The position numbers were made by a program, and so were the translations under genes. Shown here piece after piece: positions 4,168 through 23,481 of a stretch of 64,000 bases of DNA. The notes beneath the pieces are model-generated. The model searched no databases and had not been told where the DNA came from. It was given only the letters and a program-made list of their open reading frames with translations. Numbering within the stretch: the first letter of the stretch is position 1; each line of letters begins with the position of its first letter. The DNA comes from Flavobacterium sp. LC2016-12 (GTDB lineage Bacteria; Bacteroidota; Bacteroidia; Flavobacteriales; Flavobacteriaceae): contig NZ_JADKPT010000001.1 of the NCBI RefSeq assembly GCF_015351595.1, positions 620,001-684,000 on the forward strand. The letters run 5' to 3'.

Positions 4168-5289
4168 TTAAAGTCCAAAACGATACTGAAGACTGCCTAA
4201 TGCTTGTGTACGGCTACCTAAGAAACCAACTTCAGCACGAAACATTACATGTTTACTGAATTGGTATTGAGAACCAATAATGAAATTCCACATGTCTTTA
4301 GGTCTTTTTTGCAGCGAATATTGCACAGATGAAGACTCAGCGGTGCTCAAAGCGCCATCTAAAGAAGTCAAAATATCGCTGGCTTTACTAAGCGCTCTGT
4401 CTGCAGTATTATGTTTGGCAATATTTACAGGATTCGCTTGTTGTGCTGGAGATAATCCATCCCACCAAGTATCAACTTTTGTTTGGTTTTCTTCTATTTT
4501 GGCGAAACCGGTATCTACTTTTTCCTCAAGACCAGTTAAATCAAACATATCAGATAATGGAATATTTCCGTCAGTATCACCGTTGATGTGTACTCTAAAA
4601 GCACCAACCCAAACAGCAACATTGGTTTCTGGTTTAGGTAATTTAAAAGTTTTTCCTAGTCTTGGACCAAAAACATAAGAGAAGGCAGGTTTATCAAGAG
4701 AACTAATATCGGTCCAGGCCATGTTCATATCCAATGCCAGCCAGCCTCCGCCAATACCAATTGTTGGTGTCATACCCAAACCAAAAGTTGTCGCATCAAA
4801 ATTAGCCTTAGTACTAAAACTTGCAATTTGAGACCAGTTATTATCGGCATCCGGAACATAAATTCCGGCATTAATTTTAGTAGCTGTTTTGGCTTTTCCA
4901 AAAATTCCATAAATATTTAAGAAAGGAAGCAGCCAAATATCAGGTCTGATGGTTAGTGCACCAGCTTCTACGGTAGATTTATCGAATCGTACTATTTCAT
5001 CTAAATTATATTGAGGACCATTATTAAAACCTACTTCCAGGTTGCTAATTACAATTTCAGATTCCTGCCAAAAATAATTCACAGAAACTCCGGCAGAATA
5101 AGGTAATTTATATCCTTTTTGAGCAACTTTTTCTCCCCAGATAGGTAAGGCATATGGGTATTTTTCGACTTTAAGACTGTCTTTGAGCTGTTCATTTTTT
5201 TTACCAACTATTTTGTCAGTATAAACCTGACCAAAAATTTGCATGCTAAAGAATAATAGTGAGGCTGATATTAGTGTATTACATTTCAT
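4168..5289 (-). CDS. Exported outer-membrane protein of unknown function
   Basis: I do not recognise a named family with certainty. The 373-residue protein has a signal peptide (MKCNTLISASLLFFSMQIFG) and then strand-like segments rich in Gly and aromatic residues (LPYSAGVSVNYFW, FLNIYGIFGKAKT, GLGMTPTIGIGGG). A central region of about 60 residues (about 260-325) is helical and possibly coiled (KIEENQTKVDTWWDGLSPAQ). It ends LGSLQYRFGL; a C-terminal aromatic strand fits barrel insertion. It is cotranscribed with the PorT-like gene downstream. The helical insert inside a barrel-like protein is the odd part. Confidence 0.65.
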   Translation of the reverse strand: MKCNTLISASLLFFSMQIFGQVYTDKIVGKKNEQLKDSLKVEKYPYALPIWGEKVAQKGYKLPYSAGVSVNYFWQESEIVISNLEVGFNNGPQYNLDEIVRFDKSTVEAGALTIRPDIWLLPFLNIYGIFGKAKTATKINAGIYVPDADNNWSQIASFSTKANFDATTFGLGMTPTIGIGGGWLALDMNMAWTDISSLDKPAFSYVFGPRLGKTFKLPKPETNVAVWVGAFRVHINGDTDGNIPLSDMFDLTGLEEKVDTGFAKIEENQTKVDTWWDGLSPAQQANPVNIAKHNTADRALSKASDILTSLDGALSTAESSSVQYSLQKRPKDMWNFIIGSQYQFSKHVMFRAEVGFLGSRTQALGSLQYRFGL

Positions 5290-5605: not shown

Positions 5606-5929
5606 ATGAAATGGATAGCAATACTATTATCAATTTATTTGATGGCACTTTCAAATATGCCTTGTGCAGATATGGAAGTGAATAGTGCTATGCATAAAAC
5701 AGCTCAGTTTTCATCTGAAGCTAATCATTCACACGATAAGGACAATGATTTGTGTTCTCCATTTTGCGCTTGCAATTGCTGCGGAGCGCAGATTTTGAGC
5801 TATCAGCTTTCTGAAAGTTTTGAGTTTCCTGTGGCTTTTACTATTATTTCAAAAGCTTTACCTAATTATAATTCTGTTTTTGCCTCCAATTTCTACGGAA
5901 GCATTTGGCAGCCTCCTCAAATAGCATAA
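5606..5929 (+). CDS. Small exported Cys/His-rich protein (DUF6660-like), first gene of metal-efflux cluster
   Basis: The 107-residue product has an N-terminal hydrophobic segment (MKWIAILLSIYLMALSNMPC), then a His/Asp/Cys cluster: HSHDKDND followed by CSPFCACNCCG. It ends with IWQPPQIA. Short proteins like this stand before CusA-type pumps in many Bacteroidota; I recall them as DUF6660. The metal-ligand residues and the position 93 bases before the RND pump gene suggest periplasmic metal sensing, chaperoning or leader control. A similarly built protein (His/Cys cluster, C-terminal Pro-Pro) is encoded at 23080-23427 before another transport operon. Function is inferred from context only. Confidence 0.7.
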   Translation: MKWIAILLSIYLMALSNMPCADMEVNSAMHKTAQFSSEANHSHDKDNDLCSPFCACNCCGAQILSYQLSESFEFPVAFTIISKALPNYNSVFASNFYGSIWQPPQIA

Positions 5930-6022: not shown

Positions 6023-9000
6023 ATGTTAGATAAAATTATACAGTTCAGTATAAAGAATAAGTTCTTTATACTGTTATTTACCCTTGTATTGATTGCATGG
6101 GGAAGCTATTCGCTTAAAAATTTGCCGTTGGATGCTCTTCCTGATGTCACCAATAATCAGGTGCAGATCATTACAACAGCTCCAACTTTAGCCAGTCAGG
6201 AAGTGGAACAATTGATCACTTATCCGCTGGAACAGGCTGTAAAAACAGTTCCCAATATTATTGAACTGCGTAGTATTTCCCGCTTCGGATTGTCTGTCGT
6301 AACTGTCGTCTTTGAAGACGATGTCGATATTTATTGGGCCAGAGAGCAAATATTTCAACGCTTAAAACAAGCCGAAGAAAACATTCCTGCTTATGCAGGT
6401 TCGCCTGAATTAGCTCCTATTACAACTGGTTTAGGCGAAATTTACCAATATGATGTTTATGCCAAAAAAGGCTATGAAAACAAATACGATGCGATACAAT
6501 TAAGAACTATTCAGGATTGGATTATTATTCCGCAACTACAAGGAATTAAAGGTGTTGCCGACATTAGTACCTGGGGAGGAAAGCTAAAACAATATGAAAT
6601 TGCGGTAAACCCAAATACATTAAACAGTCTTGGTGTTACGATTACCGAAATTTTTGATGCTTTAGAAAAAAACAATCAAAATACTGGGGGAGCTTATATC
6701 GAAAAAGATCAATATGCCTATTTTATTCGAGGTGTCGGAATGGCGAAAGGAATAAATGATTTGGGGAATGTTGTAGTTAAAAACCGCAATGGTTCGCCTG
6801 TTTTAGTCCGTGATGTAGCCGAAGTCCGTGAAGGAATTGCGTTGCGCTATGGTGCGTCAACCAAAGATGGAAAAGGAGAAATTGTTTCGGGTTTGGTTTT
6901 GATGTTAAAAGGAGAAAATTCCAGCGCCGTAGTCAACCGAATTCATGAAAGAATGATTCAGATTAACAAAAGTCTGCCGGAAGGAGTGGTTGCAGAGGCT
7001 TTTATTGACAGAGGGAAATTAGTCGATAATGCCATCGGAACAGTTACAAAAAACCTTTTAGAAGGAGCATTAATCGTCATTTTTGTGCTGATTTTATTTC
7101 TAGGGAACTTACGTGCAGGGTTGATTGTTGCTTCTGTTATTCCCCTAGCCATGCTTTTTGCCGTGATCTTGATGAATGCCTTTGGCGTAAGCGGAAATTT
7201 AATGAGTCTTGGGGCAATTGATTTCGGAATTATAGTCGATGGAGCTGTTATTATTGTAGAAGCAACGATGCATCATCTGCAAAAACTCAAAAGAAAAAAA
7301 GAGCTTTCGCAAGAAGAAATGGACATTGAAGTCTACAATTCGGCTTCAAAAATCAGGAATAGTGCCGCTTTTGGAGAAATCATTATTCTTATAGTATATC
7401 TTCCAATTCTGGCTTTAATTGGTACCGAAGGCAAAATGTTCAAGCCAATGGCAATGACGGTTGGATTTGCTGTAATTGGTGCCTTTGTGCTTTCATTGAC
7501 CTATGTACCAATGATGAGTGCGTTATTCCTTTCAAAAAATACAGAACACAAAACCAATTTCAGTGACCGAATGATGGTTTGGCTGGAGAATTTATACAGA
7601 CCATTTTTAGAGAAAGCACTACAGTTTAAAAAGATAGTTCTGGGAATCTCAGTGGGTTTATTTGCCATTGCATGGTTAGTTTTTAATAGTATGGGCGGTG
7701 AATTTATTCCGACTATTGAAGAAGGCGATTTGGCAATAAATGCCACCATTATGACAGGAAGTTCGCTTACGCAGATGGTAGAAACGACTACTAAATATGA
7801 GAAGTTACTGAAAGCTAAATTCCCTGAAATCAAAACGATTGTGACCAAAATTGGAAGTGGAGAAATTCCAACCGATCCAATGCCCATTGAAAGCGGCGAT
7901 TTGATTATTGTGCTAAAAGACAAAAAGGAATGGAAAGGCAAATACGATAATTGGGAAGACTTGGCCAATGCCATGAAAGAAGAAATGGAAATCATTCCCG
8001 GTGCCAATATTGAGATTTCACAGCCGATTCAGATGCGTTTTAACGAATTAATGACGGGAAGCCGAAGTGATATTGCCATCAAAATTTTTGGAGATGATTT
8101 AGAGATTCTGGATGCAAAAGCAAAAGAACTAATCTCAAGAATTAAAGATATTGAAGGAATCGGTGACTTAAAAGCCGATAAAGTAACCGGTTTACCACAG
8201 ATTACAATCAAATACGATTACAATAAAATCGCTTTATACGGATTGAATATTTCAGATATCAACCAAATTATTCGTTCGTCATTTGCAGGAGAAAGTGCCG
8301 GAAAAATCTACGAAGAAAGCAAAAGGTTTGATGTGGTCGTGAGAATGAATCAGGACAATCGTGCTGATATTAGCGATGTCAGCAATTTGTTTATTCCGCT
8401 ACCGAACGGACAGCAGGTTCCGCTTTCTCAGGTTGCTTCAGTTGATTACGAGCAAGGCCCGGTTCAGGTTACGCGTGAAGATGGGAAACGCCGAATTACT
8501 GTTGGATTAAATGTCCGCGGACGCGATATTAAAAGTGTTGTTGAGGAAATTCAGGAGCGATTAGTACGAGATTTTAATCTTCCTTCTGGATATTATGTAA
8601 CCTACGGCGGTCAATTTGAGAATTTGGTCAAAGCTACCAATCGATTAATGGTTGCATTACCTATTGCATTGGGATTAATATTGATTTTATTATATCTGAC
8701 TTTCAACAGCTTCAAACAAGCAGCATTAATTTTTACCGCCATTCCATTATCGGCCATTGGAGGTGTTTTTGCCCTTTGGATGCGAGGCATGCCGTTTAGT
8801 ATTTCAGCCGGAATTGGTTTTATTGCCTTATTCGGAATTGCCGTTTTAAACGGAATTGTACTGATTTCGTATTTCAATCAATTAAAAGCAGAAGGAATAC
8901 TCGATCCGTTACAAAGAGTTTTAATCGGAACCAAAACGAGATTACGTCCGGTTTTAATGACTGCGGCTGTGGCTTCGTTAGGATTTTTGCCAATGGCATT

Positions 9001-9166
9001 GTCCACAAGCGGTGGAGCAGAAGTGCAGAAACCTTTGGCAACTGTGGTTATTGGAGGTTTAGTTTCAGCGACATTATTGACACTAATCGTTTTGCCAATT
9101 CTGTATTTATTATTGGAACGTGGACTTAACCGCAAAGAGCGCAAAGATTTACGCAATGAACGCTAA
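6023..9166 (+). CDS. CusA/CzcA-type heavy-metal efflux RND transporter
   Basis: At 1047 residues this is full length for the HME-RND family, the inner-membrane proton/metal antiporter of a tripartite pump. The start MLDKIIQFSIKNKFF, the plug-domain phrase YPLEQAVKTVPN and the TM4 signature DFGIIVDGAVIIVEA at about 398-412 are typical; its Asp and Glu residues form the proton relay. Two large periplasmic loops and twelve membrane segments can be followed. The channel and adaptor genes follow 16 and 2 bases apart, giving an A-C-B order. Substrate could be Cu, Ag, Zn, Co or Cd; the P-ATPase nearby favours Zn/Cd/Co. The last residues (LNRKERKDLRNER) are encoded by the left arm of a dispersed repeat. 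Confidence 0.95.
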   Translation: MLDKIIQFSIKNKFFILLFTLVLIAWGSYSLKNLPLDALPDVTNNQVQIITTAPTLASQEVEQLITYPLEQAVKTVPNIIELRSISRFGLSVVTVVFEDDVDIYWAREQIFQRLKQAEENIPAYAGSPELAPITTGLGEIYQYDVYAKKGYENKYDAIQLRTIQDWIIIPQLQGIKGVADISTWGGKLKQYEIAVNPNTLNSLGVTITEIFDALEKNNQNTGGAYIEKDQYAYFIRGVGMAKGINDLGNVVVKNRNGSPVLVRDVAEVREGIALRYGASTKDGKGEIVSGLVLMLKGENSSAVVNRIHERMIQINKSLPEGVVAEAFIDRGKLVDNAIGTVTKNLLEGALIVIFVLILFLGNLRAGLIVASVIPLAMLFAVILMNAFGVSGNLMSLGAIDFGIIVDGAVIIVEATMHHLQKLKRKKELSQEEMDIEVYNSASKIRNSAAFGEIIILIVYLPILALIGTEGKMFKPMAMTVGFAVIGAFVLSLTYVPMMSALFLSKNTEHKTNFSDRMMVWLENLYRPFLEKALQFKKIVLGISVGLFAIAWLVFNSMGGEFIPTIEEGDLAINATIMTGSSLTQMVETTTKYEKLLKAKFPEIKTIVTKIGSGEIPTDPMPIESGDLIIVLKDKKEWKGKYDNWEDLANAMKEEMEIIPGANIEISQPIQMRFNELMTGSRSDIAIKIFGDDLEILDAKAKELISRIKDIEGIGDLKADKVTGLPQITIKYDYNKIALYGLNISDINQIIRSSFAGESAGKIYEESKRFDVVVRMNQDNRADISDVSNLFIPLPNGQQVPLSQVASVDYEQGPVQVTREDGKRRITVGLNVRGRDIKSVVEEIQERLVRDFNLPSGYYVTYGGQFENLVKATNRLMVALPIALGLILILLYLTFNSFKQAALIFTAIPLSAIGGVFALWMRGMPFSISAGIGFIALFGIAVLNGIVLISYFNQLKAEGILDPLQRVLIGTKTRLRPVLMTAAVASLGFLPMALSTSGGAEVQKPLATVVIGGLVSATLLTLIVLPILYLLLERGLNRKERKDLRNER

Positions 9167-9260
9167 GTAAAAATTAAAGAAAATGAAAAACTCAATATAT
9201 ATATTCAGCCCAAACCCCTTCGCGAACTTCGCGCAAAAAACCTTGCGCACTTTGCGGTTA
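9126..9260. repeat. Inverted-repeat element spanning the cusA-type stop and the TolC-type start
   Basis: Left arm 9126-9163 (ttaaccgcaaagagcgcaaa and on) and right arm 9222-9260 (ending cgcactttgcggttag) are imperfect inverted repeats of about 36 bases around a 58-base centre. The left arm forms the C-terminal codons of the pump gene; the right arm encodes KTLRTLRL in the signal peptide of the channel gene. Relatives occur at 10457-10552, 11727-11760, 25149-25345 and 53660-53693. Confidence 0.8.
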
Positions 9261-10433
9261 GGAACGTTCCTATTAGTCGGTACGTTTGCACAAGCCCAAC
9301 AAGCAATCAGCTTAGAAAAAGCAATAGAACTTGCAAAATCAAACAACATCGATTTAAAAATTGCCGATAAAGAAATCGAAAAACAAACCGTTCTAAAAAA
9401 GACTGCATTTCAGGCAGATCCGCTCCAGGTACAATACCAGGGCGGGCAATTCAATAGTGCCGATTTTGACCATAACGTCTCAGTTCAGCAATACTTCCCA
9501 ATAGGAAATATTACAAAAGCGAATCGACAATTGCAGGAAGAATTGGTAAAACTGGCCGAAAAACGAAAAGCGTTATCTTCTTATGAAATTGAAAAGGCGG
9601 TAACATTGGCGTATTATCAATATTTGTACGGCGTTTCAATTCAAAGATTAAATTCGGAATTAAATGAAATTTACATCAAATTTCTAAAGAATGCCGAATT
9701 GCGTTTTAAAACCGGAGAAAGCGGAAATATTGAAGTCATCAGTGCCAAAGCGAAAGTAAAAGAAATTGAGACGCAGAAAGCACAATTAGAATACGATTTG
9801 GCGATCTACCAAAAACAATTGCAGTTTTTTGTTCAAACAAATGAAAACATTATTCCGGATGAAAAAATAGCTTTACAATATGCTATTATGAAAGAAGAAG
9901 GAAATTCGAAAGCAGAAGGTTTATTGACCGATTATTATCAACAACAGATTTCGGTTTATCAGAAGGAAAGCAACACCTACAAAGCGATGAGAACGCCAAA
10001 ATTAGGTTTAGGTTATTTTGCTCAAAGCATCAACACTGATTGGTTGTATCAGGGTTTTACGGCAGGTTTACAGATTCCGTTGTTTGGCGGAGTAAACTCG
10101 GCAAAAGCCAAAGCTTCTGAGATCAGTATTTCACAGTCGCAATTGGCTTTGGATAAAAACAAATTAACATTGAATCTGCAACAGCAGGAATTGCAAAACA
10201 ACTTTGCAAAACAACAAAAAGCACTCGATTACTATCAGAATGAAGGTTTGCAATATGCTGATCAGATTATCAGTACGGCACAAAAAAGTTATGCCAATGG
10301 CGATATGAGTTATTGGTCGTACATCAGTTTTTTAAATCAGGCTATTGATATTAAAAAACAATATGCTGAGGCGACTCATAATTACAATCAAAGTGCCATC
10401 GAACTTCAATTTCCAACCATCAAAAATAATTAA
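9183..10433 (+). CDS. TolC-family outer-membrane channel of the metal-efflux pump
   Basis: The 416-residue protein has a signal peptide ending TFAQAQ and then two long helical repeats with the heptad-like pattern of TolC proteins (ISLEKAIELAKSNNIDLKIA at the start, and again from LQIPLFGGVNSAKAKASEI). It should form the outer-membrane exit duct for the RND pump encoded just upstream and the adaptor just downstream. The n-region of the signal peptide (NPFANFAQKTLRTLRL) is read from a dispersed intergenic repeat, so this leader is recent compared with the mature protein. A start further in would lose the signal peptide, so the ATG at 9183 is kept. Confidence 0.9.
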   Translation: MKNSIYIFSPNPFANFAQKTLRTLRLGTFLLVGTFAQAQQAISLEKAIELAKSNNIDLKIADKEIEKQTVLKKTAFQADPLQVQYQGGQFNSADFDHNVSVQQYFPIGNITKANRQLQEELVKLAEKRKALSSYEIEKAVTLAYYQYLYGVSIQRLNSELNEIYIKFLKNAELRFKTGESGNIEVISAKAKVKEIETQKAQLEYDLAIYQKQLQFFVQTNENIIPDEKIALQYAIMKEEGNSKAEGLLTDYYQQQISVYQKESNTYKAMRTPKLGLGYFAQSINTDWLYQGFTAGLQIPLFGGVNSAKAKASEISISQSQLALDKNKLTLNLQQQELQNNFAKQQKALDYYQNEGLQYADQIISTAQKSYANGDMSYWSYISFLNQAIDIKKQYAEATHNYNQSAIELQFPTIKNN

Positions 10434-10435
10434 AA

Positions 10436-11689
10436 ATGAAAAATATATTAAATAGCTTAACCGCAAAGAACGCTAGGGAGTTTACGCAAAGGTCGCAACG
10501 TGTAATTTCCTTGCGTGCTTTGCGCTTTTTCCTCTTTGCGTTCCTTGCGGTTACGTTCACCAGCTGCAATGAAAAGAAAGAGGAAGAAACACACGAAGAA
10601 GAAAAATCACAGACAGAAGTTGCTTTAACCGCTTCTCAATACAAAACTATTGGCATTGAAACCGGTTTTATTGAAAACAGAAACCTCAATAAAGTCATCA
10701 AAGCCAACGGATACACGACTGTTCCGCCACAAAACTCCGCTGAAGTTTCGACTTTAATTGGTGGAACCGTGAAAGATATTTTTGTTTTGGAAGGCACTTT
10801 TGTCAATAAAGGAAAAGTGTTGGCTACGATTCAAAATTTGGAAGTAATCGAAATGCAGGAAGAATATCATTCGGCTACGGCCAATATCGAATATTTGCAA
10901 TTGGAATACAATCGCCAGAAAACATTGAGCGACGAAAATGTAAATCCGAGGAAAACGTTTCAGGAAGTAAAGGCGAGATTAGCGGCAGAGAGGGCAAGAT
11001 TACAAGCAGCGAAGAACAAATTAGATGCTTTACATGTAAGCACAAAAGGAAGCACGTCACTAGTACCAATCGTGGCGCCAATAAACGGTTACGTCGGTAA
11101 AATAAGTATTGCAAAAGGTGCTTATGCTCAAACAGGAGTTTCGTTGTTTGAAGTGGTTGATAACAGCCAAATGCATTTGGATCTGAATGTTTACGAGAAA
11201 GATTTAGGATCAATTTCAGTGGGACAGGTAATTGATTTTGTGTTGACGAATCAATCCAATAAATCAATTAAAGGAAAGATATTCGGAATCAATAAATCCT
11301 TTTCAAATGAAAGCAAAACGGTTGCCGTTCACGCCAAGATCGAATCAGCAGATGCCAAAGGACTGATTCCGGGAATGTATGTTTCTGCCAATATCAACAT
11401 CACCAATGCGACTGTTCCTGCCTTGCCAAAAGACGCTGTAGTTCGAAATGCCGATAAATATTTTGTTTTTGTAGAGGAAGCAGAACATCAGGAAAAACAA
11501 ACCGGCAAAGAAGAAAATCACGAGAAAGAAATTCATTTTAAAGCCATAGAAGTTATTCCGGGAACGACTGATTTAGGTTTTACAGAATTGAAGTTTGTAG
11601 ATGAAATTGCTCCGAATGCTAAAGTCGTTACAGAAGGTGCTTTTTATTTGTTGTCTGCGATGAAAGGCGGGGGCGAGCATGAACATTAA
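10436..11689 (+). CDS. Efflux RND periplasmic adaptor lipoprotein (CusB/CzcB type)
   Basis: The 417-residue membrane-fusion protein joins the RND pump to the outer channel. After a lipobox (TFTSC at about residue 44) comes an acidic linker, a barrel-sandwich half (AEVSTLIGGTVKDIFV), a helical hairpin (residues about 145-200), the second half (VPIVAPINGYVGKISIAKGA) and a beta-barrel domain. A His/Glu-rich insert (EEAEHQEKQTGKEENHEKE) and the C-terminal GGGEHEH could bind metal. It starts 2 bases after the channel gene stop. The first 43 residues are much longer than a normal lipoprotein leader and are largely encoded by an inverted repeat, so a shorter ancestral leader was probably replaced. 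Confidence 0.9.
   Translation: MKNILNSLTAKNAREFTQRSQRVISLRALRFFLFAFLAVTFTSCNEKKEEETHEEEKSQTEVALTASQYKTIGIETGFIENRNLNKVIKANGYTTVPPQNSAEVSTLIGGTVKDIFVLEGTFVNKGKVLATIQNLEVIEMQEEYHSATANIEYLQLEYNRQKTLSDENVNPRKTFQEVKARLAAERARLQAAKNKLDALHVSTKGSTSLVPIVAPINGYVGKISIAKGAYAQTGVSLFEVVDNSQMHLDLNVYEKDLGSISVGQVIDFVLTNQSNKSIKGKIFGINKSFSNESKTVAVHAKIESADAKGLIPGMYVSANINITNATVPALPKDAVVRNADKYFVFVEEAEHQEKQTGKEENHEKEIHFKAIEVIPGTTDLGFTELKFVDEIAPNAKVVTEGAFYLLSAMKGGGEHEH
10457..10552. repeat. Inverted-repeat element inside the adaptor signal-peptide region
   Basis: Arms 10457-10500 (starts ttaaccgcaaagaacgc) and 10508-10552 (ends tgcgttccttgcggtta) are imperfect inverted repeats of about 44 bases with a very short centre. 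The whole element is in frame and encodes from LTAKNAREF to about LAV of the lipoprotein leader. It is the same family as 9126-9260 and is read in the same frame in its right arm (SLRALR here, TLRTLR there). Confidence 0.82.
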
Positions 11690-11707
11690 AATAGTTTTCT
11701 TTGTTTA

Positions 11708-11890
11708 AGGTTTCAAGTTTCAAGTTGAGAAACTTTGCGACTTAGCGCCTTTGCGCGATTAAATAAAAAAATATTAGATAAAAACAATTGTCGTAAAATA
11801 TGTAACTTTAGAAAGTGTTTCATTTAGAACGTGGATGACGCGGATTTTAGATCCAATCCAGGCATCAACATAAAACTTGAAACTTGAAAC
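11708..11890. repeat. 183-base element with aacttgaaac terminal inverted repeats
   Basis: The spacer between the adaptor and the P-ATPase begins with ggtttcaagtttcaagtt at 11709-11726 and ends with aacttgaaacttgaaac at 11874-11890, near-perfect inverted ends. A third partial copy lies at 11897-11907. A gcaaag-family word sits inside at 11727-11760. No coding potential was seen. It has the build of a miniature inverted-repeat element, but no target-site duplication was established. Confidence 0.65.
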
Positions 11891-11911
11891 AAAAAAACTT
11901 GAAACTTCCCT

Positions 11912-13906
11912 ATGGAACATACAGATGAAAAAATAATTAAAAAGAAAAAGAACCAATCCGGTTGCTGTTCAGCTCATGAAGAGCACCATCATGTCGAAAA
12001 TGACGGACACGATCACGATCATGATCACGAACATAATGCTGATGGCAGTTTGTTTCAAATGTTTTTGCCTGCGATAATTTCATTTGTTTTATTATTAATC
12101 GGAATTGGGCTTGACAATTACTTTCCGCAAAACTGGTTTTCGGGTTATGTTAGAATTGGCTGGTATATCATTGCTTATTTGCCGGTTGGACTTCCGGTTT
12201 TGAAAGAAGCTTACGAAAGTATTATGAAAGGGGATGTCTTTTCAGAATTTTTCCTGATGTGCATTGCTACAATCGGTGCTTTTGCCATTGGAGAATATCC
12301 TGAAGGTGTTGCAGTTATGCTGTTTTATACTATTGGAGAAAACTTTCAGGGACTGGCAGTCGCACGAGCTAAATCGAATATTAAAAGTTTACTAGATCAG
12401 CGTCCGGATGAAGTCACTATTTTAGAAAATAATGTAGCGACAAAGGCCAAAGCGTCTGATGCTAAAATTGGATCAATTATTCAGCTAAAAGCTGGAGAAA
12501 AATTAGGTTTAGATGGAGAATTATTGTCTGATAACGCTTCGTTTAATACTGCAGCTCTTACCGGTGAAAGTAAACCTGCGACCAAAGTAAAAGGAGAAAC
12601 TGTTTTGGCCGGAATGATTAACGGAAATACAATCGCGCAGGTAAAAGTTACAACCGATTATAAAGACAGTAAATTGTCCAGAATCCTTGAAATGGTTCAG
12701 AATGCGACAACTAAAAAAGCACCGGCTGAATTGTTTATTCGGAAATTTGCCAAAATCTATACACCAATTGTAGTGTATTTGGCCATTGCCATTTGTTTGT
12801 TGCCAATGCTTTTTGTTAATAATTATGTTTTTAGTGATTGGCTTTACAGAGCTTTGGTATTTCTTGTAATTTCCTGTCCTTGTGCCTTAGTTATCAGTAT
12901 TCCGCTTGGTTATTTTGGGGGAATTGGAGCAGCAAGTAAAAATGGAATCCTTTTTAAAGGAAGTAATTTTCTGGACAGTATTTCGACAATTCAAAATGTT
13001 GTAATGGATAAAACCGGTACCATGACAGAAGGCGTTTTTAAGGTTCAGGAAGTAATTATATATCACGATGTCGATAAAGGAGAAATACTTAAAATGGTTA
13101 ATGCTTTAGAAAGTCAAAGTACACATCCAGTGGCGACGGCAATTCACAATTACGTAGGTGAAATTGATGCTGCAATTGAATTGAAAAATGTAGAAGAAAT
13201 TTCAGGTCATGGTTTAAAAGCCGAAATCAACGGAAAAGAATTGCACGTTGGAAATTTCAAATTAATGGATAAATTCGGTATTAAATATGATTTAGATCCG
13301 AATGAAGTAGTTTACACGACAATTGCGATTGCTTATAACAAGAAATTTGCTGGTTACTTAACCATTGCAGATGAAATTAAAGAAGATGCTCAGGAAGCGG
13401 TCAATAAATTAAAAGCATTAGGCGTCAAAGTAACGATGTTAAGTGGTGATAAAACAAATGTAGTACAGTTTGTAGCCCGAAAACTTGGAATCACAAATGC
13501 TTTTGGAGATTTGCTTCCGGAAGATAAAGTCAATAAACTCAACGAAATTAAAGCTAAAAATCAAACTGTAGCTTTTGTTGGCGATGGCGTAAATGATGCT
13601 CCTGTAATTGCTCTAAGTACGGTCGGAATTGCGATGGGCGGTTTAGGAAGCGATGCCACCATTGAAACCGCAGATATTGTTATTCAGGATGATAAACCAA
13701 GTAAAATTCCGATGGCAATCAACATCGGAAAACAAACCAAAAAGATTGTCTGGCAAAATATTACTTTGGCTTTTGTAGTAAAAGCCTTTGTGCTGATATT
13801 AGGTGCCGGCGGTCTCGCAACCATGTGGGAAGCTGTTTTTGCTGATGTTGGCGTGGCGCTGTTGGCGATTTTAAATGCGGGGAGAATTCAGAAGATGAAG
13901 TTTTAG
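11912..13906 (+). CDS. Heavy-metal translocating P1B-type ATPase (Zn/Cd/Pb-like)
   Basis: The 664-residue pump has all P-type motifs: TGES at about 216, the membrane SCPCALV at about 320, the phosphorylation site DKTGT at about 366, THPVA at about 403 and GDGVNDAP at about 556. The last membrane helix carries FADVGVALLAILNAGR, with the Asp typical of Zn/Cd/Pb exporters (subgroup P1B-2). There is no N-terminal CxxC metal-binding domain; instead the first 45 residues hold GCCSAHEEHHH and a DHDHDHEH run, probably a soluble Zn-binding tail. It exports metal from cytoplasm to periplasm, where the RND pump could pass it out of the cell. The ATG at 11912 lies just past a repeat-filled spacer. Confidence 0.93.
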   Translation: MEHTDEKIIKKKKNQSGCCSAHEEHHHVENDGHDHDHDHEHNADGSLFQMFLPAIISFVLLLIGIGLDNYFPQNWFSGYVRIGWYIIAYLPVGLPVLKEAYESIMKGDVFSEFFLMCIATIGAFAIGEYPEGVAVMLFYTIGENFQGLAVARAKSNIKSLLDQRPDEVTILENNVATKAKASDAKIGSIIQLKAGEKLGLDGELLSDNASFNTAALTGESKPATKVKGETVLAGMINGNTIAQVKVTTDYKDSKLSRILEMVQNATTKKAPAELFIRKFAKIYTPIVVYLAIAICLLPMLFVNNYVFSDWLYRALVFLVISCPCALVISIPLGYFGGIGAASKNGILFKGSNFLDSISTIQNVVMDKTGTMTEGVFKVQEVIIYHDVDKGEILKMVNALESQSTHPVATAIHNYVGEIDAAIELKNVEEISGHGLKAEINGKELHVGNFKLMDKFGIKYDLDPNEVVYTTIAIAYNKKFAGYLTIADEIKEDAQEAVNKLKALGVKVTMLSGDKTNVVQFVARKLGITNAFGDLLPEDKVNKLNEIKAKNQTVAFVGDGVNDAPVIALSTVGIAMGGLGSDATIETADIVIQDDKPSKIPMAINIGKQTKKIVWQNITLAFVVKAFVLILGAGGLATMWEAVFADVGVALLAILNAGRIQKMKF

Positions 13907-16984: not shown

Positions 16985-18337
16985 TTAGAAAATTTGCTTT
17001 TTTCTATTGAAGTTTAGCCAGCCAAAACTCATTAAAATTAAATTGAACAGGAGCAAAGGAAGCAACGCTTTTGCAAAATCTAATTTTGAGTTATCATTAA
17101 AAGTTTCAATCTTAAATTCCTCCCATTTTTCCTGATTTACGGGAGCATTGTCGAATATTCTAGGATAAAAATGCAATCGCAATTTTTCATGAAATTGCTT
17201 GGTTTCCTTTAAAAATAAAAGCTGATTTTCCAGATCAGATTTAGCAATCTCGTTCAGTTGTATTTGCGTATGAAGCGTTGGTACAAACTGCGCTATAAGT
17301 TTGCTGGCCCGATTGCGCTGTTTTAGTTTCAACTCCAATTCTCTGGATTGAATTGCCGATTCGTCGTCGCCCATTTGCTGCATCGCGTAATACCAAAGCC
17401 AGCTGAATTCGGTGTTTGGTAAAGGATAGTGTTTAAATTGTGGATAATGCGTGTAGAATTTGTCAAGTGTAATTTGTTTATCCATATCCCATTTTTCATG
17501 ATAGGCGTTTCTTTGTTTTAAAGTTAGTTCTAAAGCCTCCGGAACAGGGTATTTATTGACAATATAAGAGTTAATAACTGCAGGTAATATGATAATCATA
17601 AAAAGCCAGATAGTCAATAAAATTACAGCATTGAAGTTTGAATTTTTTTGTAGTGAAACAATAAAGAAACAGACCGAAAACCAAAAAAGAATATATAAAA
17701 TACCAAGTCCGTAAAAGGCAAGCAACGATTGATCTAACGGAATATTCAGAAAAAACGCTGCAATAGTGAGTACAACGGTAAGCACCGCAATTAGGCTTAC
17801 TATTCGGATGTAAAACAATTTTAGGATATAGAAATTTATATTGGAACTCTGTGTGGCAACAATTTTCCATGTACCGCTTTCCTTTTCTTCGGAAATGATA
17901 TTATACGAAAAGGCGATAATCAAAAGCGGAAAAAGATAAATAAGCACAAAACCAAAATCGAGATTTCCCGCCAACAGATTATTTGGATTATTTAACTCCG
18001 AATCATATTTCTGTGCTTCCAAACCACGAATCGTGACACTTTGTATCGACGGATTTACATCACGTTGTCCGATGGCCAGACTGTTTATGGGTAATGTTTT
18101 ATTGACCAGCGAAAATTTTATGTAATACAACAAGAGCCCCATTTCATCTTTATGAAAAGCCGCATTTCGTGCAATGTTTTCTTTTTGATAAAGCGCTGTT
18201 TCTGCTATATTTTGCTGCTGTTTTTGTTGGAATTGACGACCAATTAAAAGGCTTATAAAACCAATGAGCAGTAAAAAAAGCAAACCAATTTTGGTTCCTT
18301 TCGAGCGTATGAAATTTTTAAATAATAATACTAACAT
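16985..18337 (-). CDS. ABC-2-type transporter permease (DUF3526-like), second of two
   Basis: The 450-residue membrane protein has one N-terminal helix (about 14-32), a long extracytoplasmic segment to about 125, a cluster of five helices to about 260, a second large extracytoplasmic domain and a last helix near 425. The EExGT motif EEKESGTWKIVATQ is characteristic of ABC-2 permeases, and the two large outside domains match DUF3526 proteins. The paralogous permease ends 1 base upstream, so the two are translationally coupled and probably make a heterodimer with the ATPase at 22118. Related permeases (NosY, GldF class) export or extract lipids, proteins or metal chaperones; substrate here unknown. 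Confidence 0.87.
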   Translation of the reverse strand: MLVLLFKNFIRSKGTKIGLLFLLLIGFISLLIGRQFQQKQQQNIAETALYQKENIARNAAFHKDEMGLLLYYIKFSLVNKTLPINSLAIGQRDVNPSIQSVTIRGLEAQKYDSELNNPNNLLAGNLDFGFVLIYLFPLLIIAFSYNIISEEKESGTWKIVATQSSNINFYILKLFYIRIVSLIAVLTVVLTIAAFFLNIPLDQSLLAFYGLGILYILFWFSVCFFIVSLQKNSNFNAVILLTIWLFMIIILPAVINSYIVNKYPVPEALELTLKQRNAYHEKWDMDKQITLDKFYTHYPQFKHYPLPNTEFSWLWYYAMQQMGDDESAIQSRELELKLKQRNRASKLIAQFVPTLHTQIQLNEIAKSDLENQLLFLKETKQFHEKLRLHFYPRIFDNAPVNQEKWEEFKIETFNDNSKLDFAKALLPLLLFNLILMSFGWLNFNRKKQIF

Positions 18338-18338
18338 A

Positions 18339-19790
18339 TTAGATGGCTTTAAGGTTTTTAGCTGCTATTTTAAGGAAGATAAAAAGCAGGATAATCCAGA
18401 GAATGAGTGAGATAATAGAAAGAATTTCAGTTTTTAAAACGGCCAGAATTCCTTTTGGATCATAATGAAAAGAATCAATATCGGCCCAATGGTCTTTGTC
18501 AATTGTGAGTGGTTTATCTGTTGGTTCCGGCTTTTTATTACTGATATATTTAATTTGTAACGCATTCATTTTTTGCGCCATATTATAACGGTAATTTTCG
18601 GCTTGTTTTTGAAAATCGATGTAAGAATCGTAATCCGTGTTGGATAATCCCATTGATAAATTTTTCATGGCGATATAAGGGTTTAGGAACGAAACGGCTT
18701 TCGAAAAACTATTTTGCCTTTCATAAATTTGAAGTAAATCTTCCAAGTGCTGATTATAAATTTTTGAGCTGATTTTTTCTCCTTCGGTCATAATAAAACC
18801 GGAATAATTAAACGGAAGTTTCTGTACCGAATCTACTTTATAAGCACGAAATAAGGAATCTTTGATTGCTTTATAATGCGGATCATTTGGGTTATGGCTG
18901 TCGCCCTGTTTCAGAATATCTTTTTCAATATTACTGTTGAATTGCACTTTCGAAGGTGCTTCAAAAATATAAGCGCCAACGGCCTGTGTTGTTCTCGGCA
19001 AAATAATAGTAAAGAGTAGCCAAATTCCAATTAAGGAAATCAGCGCTTTTTTTGATGTTTTGCTTAAAGCAGAAATCAGAACAGCAATGGCGCAGAAAAA
19101 CAACAGGTAAAGAAAATGAAAGAGAATGAACAATAGCAATTTTATCGTTTCATCCGTTGAAATGGTAAAGTTTTGAAGGAGCATCCAAACTAAAATAAGT
19201 ACTAAAACTGCAGGTATAAAAAGTATCATAATAACGCTCGCTACCCCAAGTATTTTTCCAAATAAAAGCTGTTTCCAACTGATTCCCTGACTTAAAAGAA
19301 GTTTCAATGTTCCGTTTTCTCTTTCGGATGCGACCGAATTAAATCCGAGGAAAAAAATCAACAGTGGTAATAAAACCTGAAAAACCATTGCAATACTAAT
19401 TTCTCCAAAACGCATAATACTGTTGGAGAATCCTGCTTCAGAGAAATTGGCTGTGTTTTGTTTGTGCGCTTCAAGAAATATGGCATTCCCGAAAAAAGGC
19501 TCCATTCCAAATTCAAAAACACTTAAAGACGTGCTTTTACGAAAGGCAAAATTTCCATAGTGCGCCATCCGATGGGGATTTTTATCCGGATTGCTCAGCC
19601 AGTCTTCCCGCGACTGATGCTGGTATTTTTCACTGGTTTCGTTTTGGCTGTTGTAGTTTTTCCAACCCGATAGCGCTGCAAATAATAAGAGAGCACCAAT
19701 AAATAGTGAGATTATAAATACGGCCGAATTTTTAAAAACCGTATTTCTTAGATGTTTTGCTATTAAAAGTTCTATATGTATGGATTTCAT
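18339..19790 (-). CDS. ABC-2-type transporter permease (DUF3526-like), first of two
   Basis: The 483-residue protein is built like its downstream paralogue: an N-terminal helix (about 20-40), an extracytoplasmic part, then helices with ASERENGTLKLLLSQ (ERxGT variant of the EExGT motif), IGIWLLFTIILPRTTQAVGA, a large outside domain (about 270-430) and a final helix (LSIISLILWIILLFIFL). The outside domain carries AVSFLNPYIAMKNLSMGLS, a phrase common in DUF3526 permeases. It starts 5 bases after the TonB-dependent receptor stop, so receptor and permeases are one unit. It should pair with the second permease and the ATPase. Confidence 0.87.
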   Translation of the reverse strand: MKSIHIELLIAKHLRNTVFKNSAVFIISLFIGALLLFAALSGWKNYNSQNETSEKYQHQSREDWLSNPDKNPHRMAHYGNFAFRKSTSLSVFEFGMEPFFGNAIFLEAHKQNTANFSEAGFSNSIMRFGEISIAMVFQVLLPLLIFFLGFNSVASERENGTLKLLLSQGISWKQLLFGKILGVASVIMILFIPAVLVLILVWMLLQNFTISTDETIKLLLFILFHFLYLLFFCAIAVLISALSKTSKKALISLIGIWLLFTIILPRTTQAVGAYIFEAPSKVQFNSNIEKDILKQGDSHNPNDPHYKAIKDSLFRAYKVDSVQKLPFNYSGFIMTEGEKISSKIYNQHLEDLLQIYERQNSFSKAVSFLNPYIAMKNLSMGLSNTDYDSYIDFQKQAENYRYNMAQKMNALQIKYISNKKPEPTDKPLTIDKDHWADIDSFHYDPKGILAVLKTEILSIISLILWIILLFIFLKIAAKNLKAI

Positions 19791-19795
19791 GCCAA

Positions 19796-22090
19796 TTAAA
19801 ATTTATAAGTTACAGTCAGGTTTGCGTTTCGCGGACTTCCGGGAAACAATCTCAAATAGTTTTGAGCGCCTAACCAATACGTTTTATTAAATAAATTGCC
19901 TGCATTGACCGCAATTTGAATATTGCTATTATTTGGTTTATAATACAAAGCAGCGTCAAAAATCGTAAAATCTGGAAGTGTGAAATCTCTTGTAAACCAA
20001 GGTATTTTGCTGCTTTGATATTGCATACCGAAACCAACGCCAAAACCTTTTAAAACAGTCTCTGCAGCAAAGTTGTAGCGTGTCCATAAATTGGCGCTAT
20101 TTTTTGGTGTATTTTGCTTTCGTGCACCAATAAGTGCAAGGTTCTGATCATTGATTATCTCAGCGTCAATGAAACTGTAAGAAGCATTAATCTGCCACTG
20201 CGGTGTAATATATCCAGCCAGATCACATTCAAAACCACGGCTGCGCTCAGCGCCTCTTGTTACTAATAAGTCCGGATTGGCTGGATCATTAGCATTCATC
20301 AAAATATTACGCTGATTGATTTCATAAAATGCAGCATTAAAACTCATCGTATTATTAAGAAAGACGGCTTTTAAGCCTACTTCTTTTAAATTGCTTTCCA
20401 ATGGATCAAATAAACTTCCCGCAGGCAAAGTACCTGTTTGCGGCATTAAAGTAACGGTATTCGATTGTGGCTGATAACCTTCAAGATAAGTAGTGTAAAC
20501 GTTTATGGCTTTGTTTATGGCGTAAGTGATCCCAACTCTCGGCAGTAAAGCCGATTTCTTTACGGTCAATTCATTATTTGATTCGTAGTTGGTAATATCT
20601 TCAAACCATTCTTGTCGCAGGCCTAGTAAAAAGGTAATTCTTTGCCATTGAATCTGATCCTGAATATAAAGGGCGTTTGTTGTGGTTAAAGCCGATGGCA
20701 AAGCAGTTCGAACATTTAAAGTATAATCGTCAGCACTTGTGATTTTATAAGACGGATTATTTAAATTAAAATAATCTACATTGGGTTTCGGCATTACAAC
20801 GCCATCAATAGTGGTAGTCTGGTAATTATCGGCATTTGCCGGAATAAATGAACCGGCTATAGTTCCGTCTTTTAATAGATAACCACGTGCCGCATTTTGC
20901 CCGCCGCCTTTATTTTTGTTCCAACTGCTTAAATTATATCCTGTCAGTAGTTTATGGTTCAGTTTTCCCGTTTTAAAATCAAAATTTAAATAAGCACTTA
21001 AGTTATCAATATCCCAATTTTGCTCGCGCTGAACAAACTGCATCATGGCCAGACTTGTTACCGGCTTATTATTCATATCAACTGCAAAAGCATTTGTGGT
21101 TCTGTGTTCCTGAAGATCTTCTGTCCAGGTTTGTTTCATATAAGAAGCATTAAAACCAATTTTAGAATTGAATTTATGTGCAAAATTGGTCATCAAAATC
21201 ATTTCTTTTGATTTGAAAAAATCACTCGCAGCACCTAAATTTAAGCTGATTGGCGTTTTGTTTAAATCGGTTTTTCCCGCCACGGCACCAAAAATAGGCT
21301 GACCCCGATCCAGATTGCCGTTCATACTGCTTAAAATTAATTCTGTATTAATAGCTGTTTTTTCATTCGGGATATAACTGAAAGAGGGTGATAGCAGAAA
21401 TGACTTATTGTTGACCAGATCCCGAAACGATTTTGCTTCCTGATAAGCACCATTTACGCGATATAAAAGTGTTTTTGATTCGTTTAACGGCCCTGTAAAA
21501 TCTAATGTTCCTCGAAGTGTGCTGAAACTGCCAACGCTTAGACTCACTTCTTTTCGATCTGTCGCCAAAGGTTTTTTGGTCACCATATTGATGCTTCCAC
21601 CCGGATCTACAGACGAGAATGTGGCACTCGAAGGTCCTTTTATAACTTCTATGCGTTCGATATTAGTTGTCAAAGGCTGTAGAAAGTAATATTGTCTGGT
21701 TCGCATTCCGTTAATAATTTGGCCCTCTTCATTTTGACTTATACCACGAATCGTATATTGATTGTAATAGCTGGCCGGAATAACACCACTGGCCATTTTT
21801 ACGGCATCTGCCAAATAAAAAGCACCTTTATCTGCAATTAATTCTTTGGTAATGGTCGAAATAGATTGTGGAATATCTTTATTTAATGCTGCTGTTTTTG
21901 TAGCAGAAAAAGAGTAGTCGCTGTTGTATTTTCGTGTCGAACGGCCAATGATTTCGACTGTTTGTAATTCATTTTTTTCCATTTGAATGGAGTCCTGAGC
22001 AATGCTGTCTTTAACTTTTTTGCTGATGCTTTGCGAATGCAGGTTTTGCGCACTTATGAATAAGAATAGAAAGGAAAGTAGATTTTTCAT
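19796..22090 (-). CDS. TonB-dependent receptor (FhuA-like, siderophore/metallophore type)
   Basis: The 764-residue receptor has a signal peptide, a short N-terminus without a carboxypeptidase-like domain, a plug (about 55-170; KDIPQSISTITKELI, YTIRGISQNEEGQIINGMRT, IEVIKGPSSATFSSVDPGGS) and a 22-strand-type barrel ending NLTVTYKF with a terminal Phe. Plug motifs of the IxVIKGPSS..PGG type mark the siderophore receptor subfamily. It imports a metal-chelate or similar compound with TonB energy. Its place between an ABC ATPase gene (27 bases upstream) and the two permease genes of that ABC system is unusual, because DUF3526-type permeases are usually exporters. Confidence 0.92.
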   Translation of the reverse strand: MKNLLSFLFLFISAQNLHSQSISKKVKDSIAQDSIQMEKNELQTVEIIGRSTRKYNSDYSFSATKTAALNKDIPQSISTITKELIADKGAFYLADAVKMASGVIPASYYNQYTIRGISQNEEGQIINGMRTRQYYFLQPLTTNIERIEVIKGPSSATFSSVDPGGSINMVTKKPLATDRKEVSLSVGSFSTLRGTLDFTGPLNESKTLLYRVNGAYQEAKSFRDLVNNKSFLLSPSFSYIPNEKTAINTELILSSMNGNLDRGQPIFGAVAGKTDLNKTPISLNLGAASDFFKSKEMILMTNFAHKFNSKIGFNASYMKQTWTEDLQEHRTTNAFAVDMNNKPVTSLAMMQFVQREQNWDIDNLSAYLNFDFKTGKLNHKLLTGYNLSSWNKNKGGGQNAARGYLLKDGTIAGSFIPANADNYQTTTIDGVVMPKPNVDYFNLNNPSYKITSADDYTLNVRTALPSALTTTNALYIQDQIQWQRITFLLGLRQEWFEDITNYESNNELTVKKSALLPRVGITYAINKAINVYTTYLEGYQPQSNTVTLMPQTGTLPAGSLFDPLESNLKEVGLKAVFLNNTMSFNAAFYEINQRNILMNANDPANPDLLVTRGAERSRGFECDLAGYITPQWQINASYSFIDAEIINDQNLALIGARKQNTPKNSANLWTRYNFAAETVLKGFGVGFGMQYQSSKIPWFTRDFTLPDFTIFDAALYYKPNNSNIQIAVNAGNLFNKTYWLGAQNYLRLFPGSPRNANLTVTYKF

Positions 22091-22117
22091 TTTAGGTTGA
22101 TGGAAACTCTTTTCCCT

Positions 22118-22813
22118 TTAAACAGTTTGTAAATAAAGCGCTTCCAATTCATTTGCAGATATTTTCTCAGCCTCAATAATGGTGACGAGATTACCTTGTT
22201 TCATAATTCCAATATGGGTGGCAACTTCACGTGCCCTGAAAATGTCATGTGTAGCCATTAAAATAGCAGTTCCGTCCGCTGAAAGTTCTTTTAGAATCTG
22301 GGAGAATTCGTTAGAAGCCTTTGGATCTAGACCGCTGGTAGGCTCATCTAACAAGAGAACCTTCGCTTTTTTGGCAATAGCAATGGCAATGCCCACTTTC
22401 TGACGCATTCCTTTTGAATAACCACCAAGAGGTTGCTGATGTGCCGATGCTTGCAGTCCAGCTTTGCTTAGGAAATAAGTTAATTCTCCATTAGAATATT
22501 TAAATCCGGCCAAAGACGAGAAAAACTTCAGGTTTTCCATACCGGTAAGATTCGGATAAAGCATTACTGTTTCGGGAATGTATGCAACGAATTTTTTTGT
22601 TTCCTGAGCATTTTCAGCTACTGAAACACCATTAATTTCCAGTTCTCCACTCGTAGGTTCAATGAAGCCCAGAAACAGATTGATAGTAGTCGTTTTTCCT
22701 GCTCCGTTTTGACCTAAAAGAGCGAAAATTTCTCCTTCTTTAATTGTTAGATTCAGTTTATTAAGAGCGATTTGATCGCCATATTTTTTAGTCAGATTCT
22801 CAGCTGTAAGCAT
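22118..22813 (-). CDS. ABC transporter ATP-binding protein
   Basis: The 231-residue ATPase has Walker A GQNGAGKTT, Q-loop region, signature GGYSKGMRQK (a form common in NosF/CcmA-like exporters rather than LSGGQ), Walker B VLLLDEPTSGLDP and the H-loop MATHD. It is the first gene of a four-gene minus-strand run (ATPase, TonB receptor, two DUF3526 permeases) and so should energise the two permeases. A small Cys/His-rich exported protein is encoded 266 bases upstream on the same strand. Confidence 0.93.
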   Translation of the reverse strand: MLTAENLTKKYGDQIALNKLNLTIKEGEIFALLGQNGAGKTTTINLFLGFIEPTSGELEINGVSVAENAQETKKFVAYIPETVMLYPNLTGMENLKFFSSLAGFKYSNGELTYFLSKAGLQASAHQQPLGGYSKGMRQKVGIAIAIAKKAKVLLLDEPTSGLDPKASNEFSQILKELSADGTAILMATHDIFRAREVATHIGIMKQGNLVTIIEAEKISANELEALYLQTV

Positions 22814-23079
22814 AGTTTATTGTTTAAATTATGAGTTTGAATGAATAGAAACCGTAAAATGACAGAAGCATTCTGTTCGTAAACAGTGCTTTATCGTGTT
22901 TTTCGGAAAAAGAAGGATGATGTATGAAGCTAATACAATAGCTTTATTTCAACATTTAAAAAATGCCGTTTTATAACTTATCGATAATTTGGATAAGGGG
23001 TATAAATACAGTTTTCTTTCGTCCAGATCTAGAAAATGGACAAACAAGTATGGCTTTTATAAAATGTTGAAGGTAATGC

Positions 23080-23427
23080 TTAAAGAGCAGGAGGTGCTCT
23101 TAATGCAAATAGACTGCCTTTGAAGAAAGTTGAAATTGATTTTGTATATAAAAATACTTCAGAAGTTTCAATTTGTACTTTTTCAAAAGATAAGGACTGA
23201 AAAGAATTCGGAATAAAAGTACTAAAAGCAAAATGACAAATAGGACATTTAGTATCAACGGAATGGCTGTGCGTTATTTCCTTTTGATTAGCACTGGTAT
23301 GATGTTCACAGTGCTTTTCTGTTAATTGTGTTAAAAGATGTTCGTAAGAATGGACCGTCTGAAACAGCATTGCGGACAATACCATTAGAGACATCAAAAA
23401 ATTAATAATAATAACTTTCTTTTTCAT
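23080..23427 (-). CDS. Small exported Cys/His-rich protein (DUF2946-like)
   Basis: The 115-residue product has a signal peptide-like N-terminus (MKKKVIIINFLMSLMVLSA), then HSYEHLL, KHCEHH, THSHSVDTKCPICHFAFS and the end LFALRAPPAL. A His/CxxC cluster followed by a C-terminal RAPP is the pattern of DUF2946-like proteins that stand near copper and metal receptor genes. It precedes the ABC/TonB-receptor operon and is similar in plan to the small protein at 5606-5929. Its own promoter with an overlapping dyad is visible upstream. A metal-responsive or metal-carrying role is inferred, not shown. Confidence 0.65.
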   Translation of the reverse strand: MKKKVIIINFLMSLMVLSAMLFQTVHSYEHLLTQLTEKHCEHHTSANQKEITHSHSVDTKCPICHFAFSTFIPNSFQSLSFEKVQIETSEVFLYTKSISTFFKGSLFALRAPPAL

Positions 23428-23461
23428 TCTTTTTGGGAGAACTATGCGAATTACAACAAAC

Positions 23462-23481
23462 GCAACAGTGTTGCAAATATA
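23462..23481 (-). promoter_or_regulatory. Promoter -7 box with overlapping GCAAC-N3-GTTGC dyad
   Basis: On the minus strand TATATTTG (23474-23481) is an exact match to the Bacteroidota -7 consensus TAnnTTTG; a TTTCG about 19 bases upstream may serve as -33. Immediately downstream, over the expected transcription start, is the perfect dyad gcaacagtgttgc (23462-23474). The start codon of the small Cys/His protein follows about 35 bases on. A repressor bound at the dyad would block initiation. Confidence 0.5.

Follow-up and report, generated by a model that had tools for sequence, protein, structure and literature searches.

Five genes on the minus strand of a 64,000-nucleotide stretch of Flavobacterium sp. 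LC2016-12 DNA (contig NZ_JADKPT010000001.1, positions 620,001 to 684,000; this whole stretch is called the window below, and its first letter is position 1) combine a TonB-dependent receptor with an ATP-binding cassette (ABC) transporter that has two DUF3526 permeases, and we interpret them as probably a zinc-acquisition operon under the repressor Zur. The order of transcription is small Cys/His gene, ATPase, receptor, permease A and permease B, with gaps of 266, 27, 5 and 1 bases, and the open reading frames (ORFs) are contiguous on one strand and confirm the gene order and gaps given in an earlier note on this DNA. The genome has a size of 5.0 Mb. The features of the locus are as follows (nt, nucleotides; aa, amino acids):

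23474..23481, minus strand: -7 promoter element TATATTTG, TAnnTTTG type of Flavobacterium (consensus match)
23461..23475, minus strand: 7-1-7 inverted repeat TGCAACACTGTTGCG, predicted Zur operator, overlapping the -7 element (one-mismatch site)
23080..23427, minus strand: small Cys/His gene, 115 aa, predicted CruR-type metal-sensing leader peptide (CPIC - 45 aa - RAPP - 2 aa - stop)
23018..23044, minus strand: hairpin TTTGTCCA/TGGACGAA, starting 36 nt past the leader stop, possible RNA element of the leader (weak)
22814..23079, minus strand: leader-ATPase intergenic region, 266 nt (ORF list)
22118..22813, minus strand: ABC ATPase (NosF/ZnuG-like), 231 aa (Pfam/NCBIfam)
19796..22090, minus strand: TonB-dependent receptor, siderophore-receptor subfamily (FhuA/FoxA-like), 764 aa (Pfam, NCBIfam)
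18339..19790, minus strand: DUF3526 permease A, NosY fold, 483 aa (Pfam, model), with conserved H73/H77/E107/H109 presumably in an outer loop
16985..18337, minus strand: DUF3526 permease B, 450 aa (Pfam)

The family scans concur with the earlier assignment of these genes to the DUF3526, ABC ATPase and TonB receptor families. In Pfam the ATPase matches ABC_tran with 112.8 bits, the receptor has Plug and beta-barrel domains, and permeases A and B score 109.1 and 82.7 bits, respectively, against a DUF3526 cut-off of 25. The receptor also lies above the NCBIfam cut-off for siderophore receptors (TIGR01783, 287.4 vs. 223.5 bits).

The conserved transport unit

Relatives were collected by scanning named genomes with permease A. 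At least 571 were confirmed, of which the best 80, nearly all from Bacteroidota, were kept, and the neighbouring genes were detected with profiles built from the window and the relatives. All 80 loci have the second permease, 75 have the receptor and 74 the ATPase, and the three occur together in 69. The grouping of the genes is far beyond chance. The earlier note had seen a single metal pathway in the tight coupling of the genes and had counted the receptor as part of it; the conserved unit supports the former, and the receptor, far from being missing in most relatives, is a regular member. As for the five-gene order, which the note proposed to survey, the exact sequence ATPase-receptor-permease A-permease B is kept in 58 of the 80 loci and a leader of the CruR kind (see below) is present in 61. 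The receptor went undetected in L092, L093, L115, L117 and L136. Six loci have no ATPase inside 4.5 kb; the upstream flank is short in three (L107, 459 nt; L137, 490 nt; L140, 2446 nt), and in L113 and L133 the ATPase is present but more than 4.5 kb away. Among the matches listed, Flavobacterium saccharophilum has the named permease A nearest to this one (96% protein identity). A strain of Flavobacterium johnsoniae (L068) carries the operon as well. A second, more diverged DUF3526 permease pair lies near the first in L090, L096, L105, L113, L126, L127 and L133, and just one ATPase gene was found for both pairs in L096, L113, L126 and L133.

Twelve plasmid records hold a relative as well. Ten were inspected, and in seven the unit is annotated together with a TonB receptor (Spirosoma, two Hymenobacter, Aureibacter, Eleftheria, Comamonas and Blastomonas). 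On the Novosphingobium and Variovorax plasmids the unit is unannotated, and the profiles found it with its receptor, which is divergent in Novosphingobium; in the Methylocystis plasmid record no receptor adjoins the unit. Since it is found on plasmid records of Bacteroidota and of other bacteria, the unit spans two phyla, with varying gene order. On the Novosphingobium plasmid (L020, 7062-7081) a long palindrome, TGATATGTTGCATCATATCA, lies between the divergent receptor and ATPase genes.

The permeases had been called NosY-type in the earlier note, and sequence and fold both bear this out. A profile search (hmmsearch) places NosY first among the solved relatives of permease A (E 1e-7), and the structural model of this protein (predicted local distance difference test, pLDDT, 87.9; predicted template modelling score, pTM, 0.86) gives four PDB matches at E <=0.001 in Foldseek, all of them NosY chains of NosDFY, the best at rank 1 with E 1.6e-4. 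The residues H73 (0.99), H77 (1.00), E107 (1.00), H109 (1.00) and H299 (0.95) are conserved among 80 permease A sequences, a set from which 23 near-identical Flavobacterium-type loci were left out and in which second copies and plasmid loci were kept. H73 and H77 are one turn apart on a short helix of the model, and E107 and H109 occupy a strand end. Judged by the topology established for ABC-2 permeases, we take this region to be the first outer loop, and the four residues are a reasonable candidate for a metal site. No paper on DUF3526 was found in the literature.

NosY and ABC-2 folds are those of exporters or mechanical couplers, and the best match of permease A thus also suits a different explanation, in which the ABC-2 complex works outwards, exporting, recycling or stripping a zinc chelator, and the receptor re-imports the loaded chelator, the whole still being controlled by Zur. 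The receptor agrees with this, as it belongs to the siderophore subfamily and its nearest solved structures are FhuA, FoxA and similar proteins. Zur-regulated metallophores exist elsewhere, according to the accessible part of a review (PMC6103462). However, no biosynthesis-like gene is present among the ten genes scanned with Pfam (the operon and five neighbours), and the permease has its conserved candidate metal ligands, so outward transport of a chelator seems to us rather unlikely, and we prefer zinc uptake.

Predicted operator and choice of metal

A Fur-family operator sequence, TGCAACANTGTTGCA, is found upstream of the small Cys/His gene, where it overlaps the promoter; a 7-1-7 inverted repeat is the kind of operator used by the Fur family. 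The available text of PMC9723704 gives TAnnTTTG for the -7 box in sigma-A promoters of Flavobacterium. The fused promoter-box pattern TAnnTTTGCAACnnn[GA]TTGC occurs once in each of the 25 Flavobacterium-type loci (25/25) and nowhere else on either strand of their 432 kb. In the genome of LC2016-12, 23 sites match the box with up to two mismatches, as opposed to 9 for the reversed control pattern. Three sites have one mismatch: one is the operon promoter, the second is the promoter region shared by a Fur-family gene, with NRAMP behind it, and the divergently oriented genes of MerC and a pyridine-nucleotide oxidoreductase, and the third has no gene start within 500 bases. When 500 nt were scanned, a box with at most two mismatches was found upstream in 35 of 77 loci vs. 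36 of 1540 random stretches; L107, L137 and L140 were dropped from this count as they lack upstream sequence. A scan for promoter and terminator patterns of the sigma-70 type found sites no more often than in shuffled sequences. Tandem predicted Zur boxes, 35-40 bp apart, are found in L088, L089, L091, L092, L093, L113, L126, L132, L133 and L144, and another such pair is located at C2:506582 and C2:506618 in the genome of LC2016-12.

The exact box has 13 sites in 11 of 296 genomes of the phylum, vs. a single site of the control. Nine of the 13 are at recognisable metal genes, which are sometimes second in order, and some sites count twice: Fur-family genes (three), a ZIP gene, MerC (two), TonB receptors (two), an ABC ATPase behind a DUF1826 gene, a COG0523 GTPase (539.5 bits with the ZigA zinc-chaperone model, cut-off 600) and a protein resembling the AztD zinc chaperone (66.2 bits, cut-off 400). 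The other four (L058, L061, L062 and L065) are without a metal gene. Two genomes from another family of the order have a Fur-family gene inside the DUF3526/TonB cluster, with a box at its own start. Given the genes that follow the box elsewhere, i.e. those of a Fur-family regulator and of MerC, ZIP, ZigA-like and AztD-like proteins, it is probably a Zur (zinc) box, to which binding of Zur is predicted. Two Fur-family genes were found in the genome of LC2016-12, and the one at C2:506266-506550, with the box at its own promoter, is the putative Zur regulator. No published Zur motif for Bacteroidota was found in the literature; regulon databases were outside this search, so one may exist.

Two side observations concern the genes near such boxes. 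In L015 and L016, small genomes of another family, a Fur-family gene lies in the cluster and a His-rich lipoprotein-like ORF near the receptor. In L113 a MerC-family gene (4522-5040, plus strand, 88.5 bits) that overlaps with two predicted Zur boxes stands just ahead of the DUF3526/TonB cluster; MerC likewise shares the regulator promoter in LC2016-12.

We also looked at other zinc transporters. An ABC-3 permease (PF00950, the ZnuB type of ZnuABC importers) gave no match at E 0.001 in LC2016-12, nor in the five other DUF3526-bearing genomes of a sample of 60; ZIP-family genes are present in LC2016-12. In this sample of near relatives DUF3526 is patchy (6 of 60 genomes, LC2016-12 included), and ABC-3 is found in 6 (below E 1e-30) or 15 (E 0.001). 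DUF3526 and strong ABC-3 matches never overlap. This exclusion proves nothing because 48 of the 60 genomes have neither, and it was dropped as evidence.

The locus can be compared with a zinc system of Caulobacter crescentus. According to the accessible part of PMC4176598, the TonB receptor gene znuK (CC1517) and znuGHI (CC1518-1520), an ABC-2 ATPase and two ABC-2 permeases, are numbered consecutively, zinc-bound Zur represses them, and strong zinc limitation makes znuK necessary. The accessible part of the review counts znuGHI among the ABC-type zinc uptake systems (PMC6103462). The earlier note had called the system undescribed, which is too strong because znuK and znuGHI have been published. 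Both systems have one ABC-2 ATPase, two ABC-2 permeases and an adjacent TonB receptor, and in both a Fur-family operator lies over the promoter, with a role in zinc shortage proposed for Caulobacter in the text available, and Zur binding predicted from sequence in our case. There are also differences. Firstly, the receptor sits between ATPase and permeases in Flavobacterium, whereas in Caulobacter, as far as the available text goes, a single Zur-bound region drives both the receptor gene and znuGHI (PMC4176598); since the Zur sites listed there are reverse complements, the two are probably divergent. Secondly, the operator halves are GTTAT/ATAAC in Caulobacter and TGCAAC/GTTGC here, and the Caulobacter-type operator TGTTATNNNATAACA was absent, at up to two mismatches, from six proteobacterial relatives. 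Thirdly, the accessible part of PMC4176598 mentions no leader. One of 14 control genomes has DUF3526 matches, that of Caulobacter vibrioides, which we take to be the same species as C. crescentus; the permeases are likely homologous to CC1519/CC1520, the ABC-2 permeases of Caulobacter. The zinc assignment is inferred from the company of the operator and this one experimentally studied relative.

The small Cys/His gene as a predicted leader

In the product of the small gene, CPIC is followed by RAPP after 45 residues and two more residues precede the stop. CruR of Bordetella pertussis, the DUF2946 leader of cruR-bfrG-bp2921, has its CXXC and RAPP motifs 45 residues apart, and copper on the nascent chain relieves the arrest at RAPP, so that Rho ends transcription and the downstream TonB transporter is not made (PMC9426467, available part); complementation of CruR in trans reportedly fails. 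The two genes are alike in being first in the operon, in the CXXC-45-RAPP architecture, in the long gap that follows (266 nt here) and in the TonB transporter downstream. The CruR promoter has no Fur site according to the available part of PMC12914433, whereas a Zur-type box is added here; and, unlike the CruR operon with its PepSY_TM protein, the present one encodes an ABC-2 transporter. CutF-like leaders, which are frequent in Bacteroidota (PMC9973294, available part), offer a similar comparison: Rhodobacter CutF and the CopL relatives are, in the text available, small exported Cys proteins with PP near the stop, encoded ahead of metal genes, as is the small protein here. 

The architecture is widespread. 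Sixty of the 61 leaders counted above (PP in the last 16 residues) have a CxxC motif, and in a set of 91 loci, which consists of the 80 named loci and others and counts one locus twice because L012 and L084 are one genome, the same definition gives 70 leaders, 66 with CxxC. The strict form, i.e. CxxC, 40-55 residues, R/K two before PP and at most 8 residues to the stop, is met in 64 of the 91 loci vs. 2 of 1258 random anchors. The spacing forms clusters by clade, at 45, 43-44, 46 and 51-52; values of 15, 47 and 64 fall outside these, and CxxC is missing from four leaders. Invariant residues among 34 leaders from across the clades are limited to two Cys and two Pro, an invariance partly built in, since PP close to the stop and, if available, CxxC served as the criteria for choosing leaders; the fair test is the random-anchor control. 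In 26 Flavobacterium-type leaders the ratio of nonsynonymous to synonymous polymorphism (pN/pS) is 0.33 overall and 0.20 in the last 20 codons, where each position of FFKGSLFALRAPP is at least 90% conserved.

The earlier note had listed the small protein as part of the candidate metal system. The CPIC-45-RAPP architecture is better explained by a regulatory leader of the CruR type, and the gene looks, by analogy with CruR, more like a built-in metal sensor that switches the operon on or off than like a part of the machine. The competing explanation, that there is no leader and that the protein is a secreted metal carrier for the receptor and permeases, fits either direction of transport. The N-terminal hydrophobic helix and the His/Cys clusters are in line with a carrier, as are the protein-level selection seen in the pN/pS of 0.33 and the His-rich lipoprotein-like ORF that directly precedes the ATPase in L016. 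On the other hand, the only residues kept across clades are CxxC and PP near the stop, constraint is strongest over the last 20 codons, CruR with its identical architecture is a cis-acting leader (available text), and AlphaFold predicts no confident fold past the N-terminal helix (pLDDT 62, pTM 0.34). A structural role as metal carrier was accordingly ranked down, on the likeness to CruR and the invariance limited to Cys and Pro, and we hold it to be quite improbable next to the leader.

NosDFY matures a copper enzyme, and one may also think of copper acquisition: the leader would read copper in the manner of CruR, the receptor would take up copper as does CrtA of Bordetella, and a NosFY-like complex would deliver it to a periplasmic enzyme. 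CruR and CutF sense copper, and CruR heads a TonB-transporter operon, in the parts of the reports available. The ATPase and the NosY-fold permease do resemble NosDFY(L), but the two different permeases with large DUF3526 insertions and the TonB receptor do not, and no NosD-like or copper-enzyme family is found among the same ten genes. Furthermore, the operator set includes zinc genes (ZIP, ZigA-like and AztD-like), Zur represses the counterpart in Caulobacter (available text), and the leader adds His beside Cys (CPICH, HSH). Copper acquisition thus appears very unlikely, and zinc is the metal that we favour for the operon; the leader itself, by analogy, may read zinc or copper. No zinc-reading leader of the CruR type was found in the literature.

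An RNA element after the leader stop has weak support from sequence. Folding energy is lowest at stop+15 to +75, with mean z-scores of -1.64 (27 Flavobacterium) and -1.42 (42 others) compared to -0.29 to -1.14 in other stretches (-0.46 to -0.90 for the 27 Flavobacterium). CutF has a stem-loop over the Shine-Dalgarno sequence (available text), whereas RNAalifold gave no consensus pairs in 18 segments of the leader-ATPase gap.

A further small Cys-rich protein is encoded in the window at 5606-5929 (plus strand); it belongs to DUF6660 (53.1 bits), ends with WQPPQIA and lies directly before a CusA/CzcA-type efflux pump. A second leader of the CutF kind, in this case for efflux, is the probable explanation.

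Proposed regulation and transport

We propose, with a probability of about 60%, that the locus is a Zur-repressed zinc-acquisition operon, the counterpart of Caulobacter znuK/znuGHI, in which a CruR-type leader would act as a second metal switch at the level of the nascent peptide. The direct observations behind it are limited to the conserved order of the genes, the box, the architecture of the leader and the residues conserved in the permease. Judging from the sequence, zinc-loaded Zur would bind the TGCAACACTGTTGCG box over the TATATTTG promoter and block transcription, and zinc shortage would free the promoter. The leader would then be translated and, if the resemblance to CruR holds, its C-terminal RAPP would stall the ribosome; a metal bound at CPICH of the nascent chain would alter the stall and so decide whether ATPase, receptor and permeases are synthesized. 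From its family, the TonB receptor would carry zinc or a zinc chelate into the periplasm. In the least certain step, the ATPase and the two NosY-like permeases, probably as a heterodimer, would use ATP at the inner membrane, and the metal would be accepted at the outer-loop His/Glu site (H73, H77, E107, H109) and moved inwards or handed on. The ABC complex may serve zinc import, chelator recycling or NosFY-like work.

A number of points weigh against this proposal. As regards the operator, scanning 500 nt upstream at a limit of two mismatches gave no box in 42 of the 77 loci. This number includes seven Flavobacterium loci in which the centre is more diverged, both half-sites are kept or nearly so and the fused pattern is present; in L095, L096, L113 and L126 boxes are found farther upstream. 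No box lies that close in 8/8 Chryseobacterium, 3/3 Zobellia, 3/4 Aquimarina and 2/3 Pedobacter loci, and these may use another operator or another signal. The regulator at C2 scores 37.3 bits with the Fur-Bacillus and 33.1 bits with the Zur model of NCBIfam, all models being far under their cut-offs, and is assigned by NCBIfam to none of Zur, Fur and PerR; the NRAMP gene beside it would also fit manganese or iron and is no zinc marker. The operon is patchy, with 2 of 36 other genomes of the same genus carrying it in one sample. As regards the leader, 19 of the 80 loci have none of the CruR type, and the gene scores 15.4 bits with DUF2946 (PF11162, E 0.033), under the cut-off of 23.7. Because of this score our claim is limited to a gene built like the CruR leader, without certified membership of DUF2946; on the Eleftheria plasmid the first gene of the unit is annotated as DUF2946, and the leader in this position scores 28.9 bits. 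The DUF2946/CutF-like leaders studied so far answer to copper, and the effect of zinc was slight on BfrG protein and moderate on its mRNA, according to the available parts of PMC9426467 and PMC9973294. Finally, NosY-type transporters are not established as importers.

A bolder version of the proposal is that the locus encodes a new type of zinc importer, in which ZnuABC is replaced by an ABC-2 heterodimer of NosY fold that has a His/Glu site on its outer side and is supplied by its own TonB receptor, under a Zur operator and a zinc-reading arrest peptide of CruR architecture. We put this forward as a tentative and on balance improbable possibility. If true, such an importer with two stacked switches would be without a precedent known to us in two ways, as an ABC-2 importer of a metal and in having a nascent-peptide leader that senses zinc. 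Beyond this, an unnamed DUF3526/TonB cluster, with its at least 571 permease relatives, becomes a testable zinc system, a Zur box is proposed for Bacteroidota, and the direction of transport by NosY-type complexes is opened to direct test. Since a CruR-type leader and a Zur-type box share one operon, leader and repressor can be separated experimentally.

In the same window, within about 10 kb of the operon, genes of CzcA/CzcB-type resistance-nodulation-division (RND) efflux systems and of a P-type ATPase of the Zn/Cd type with a His-rich start are found at 6023-13906 on the plus strand.

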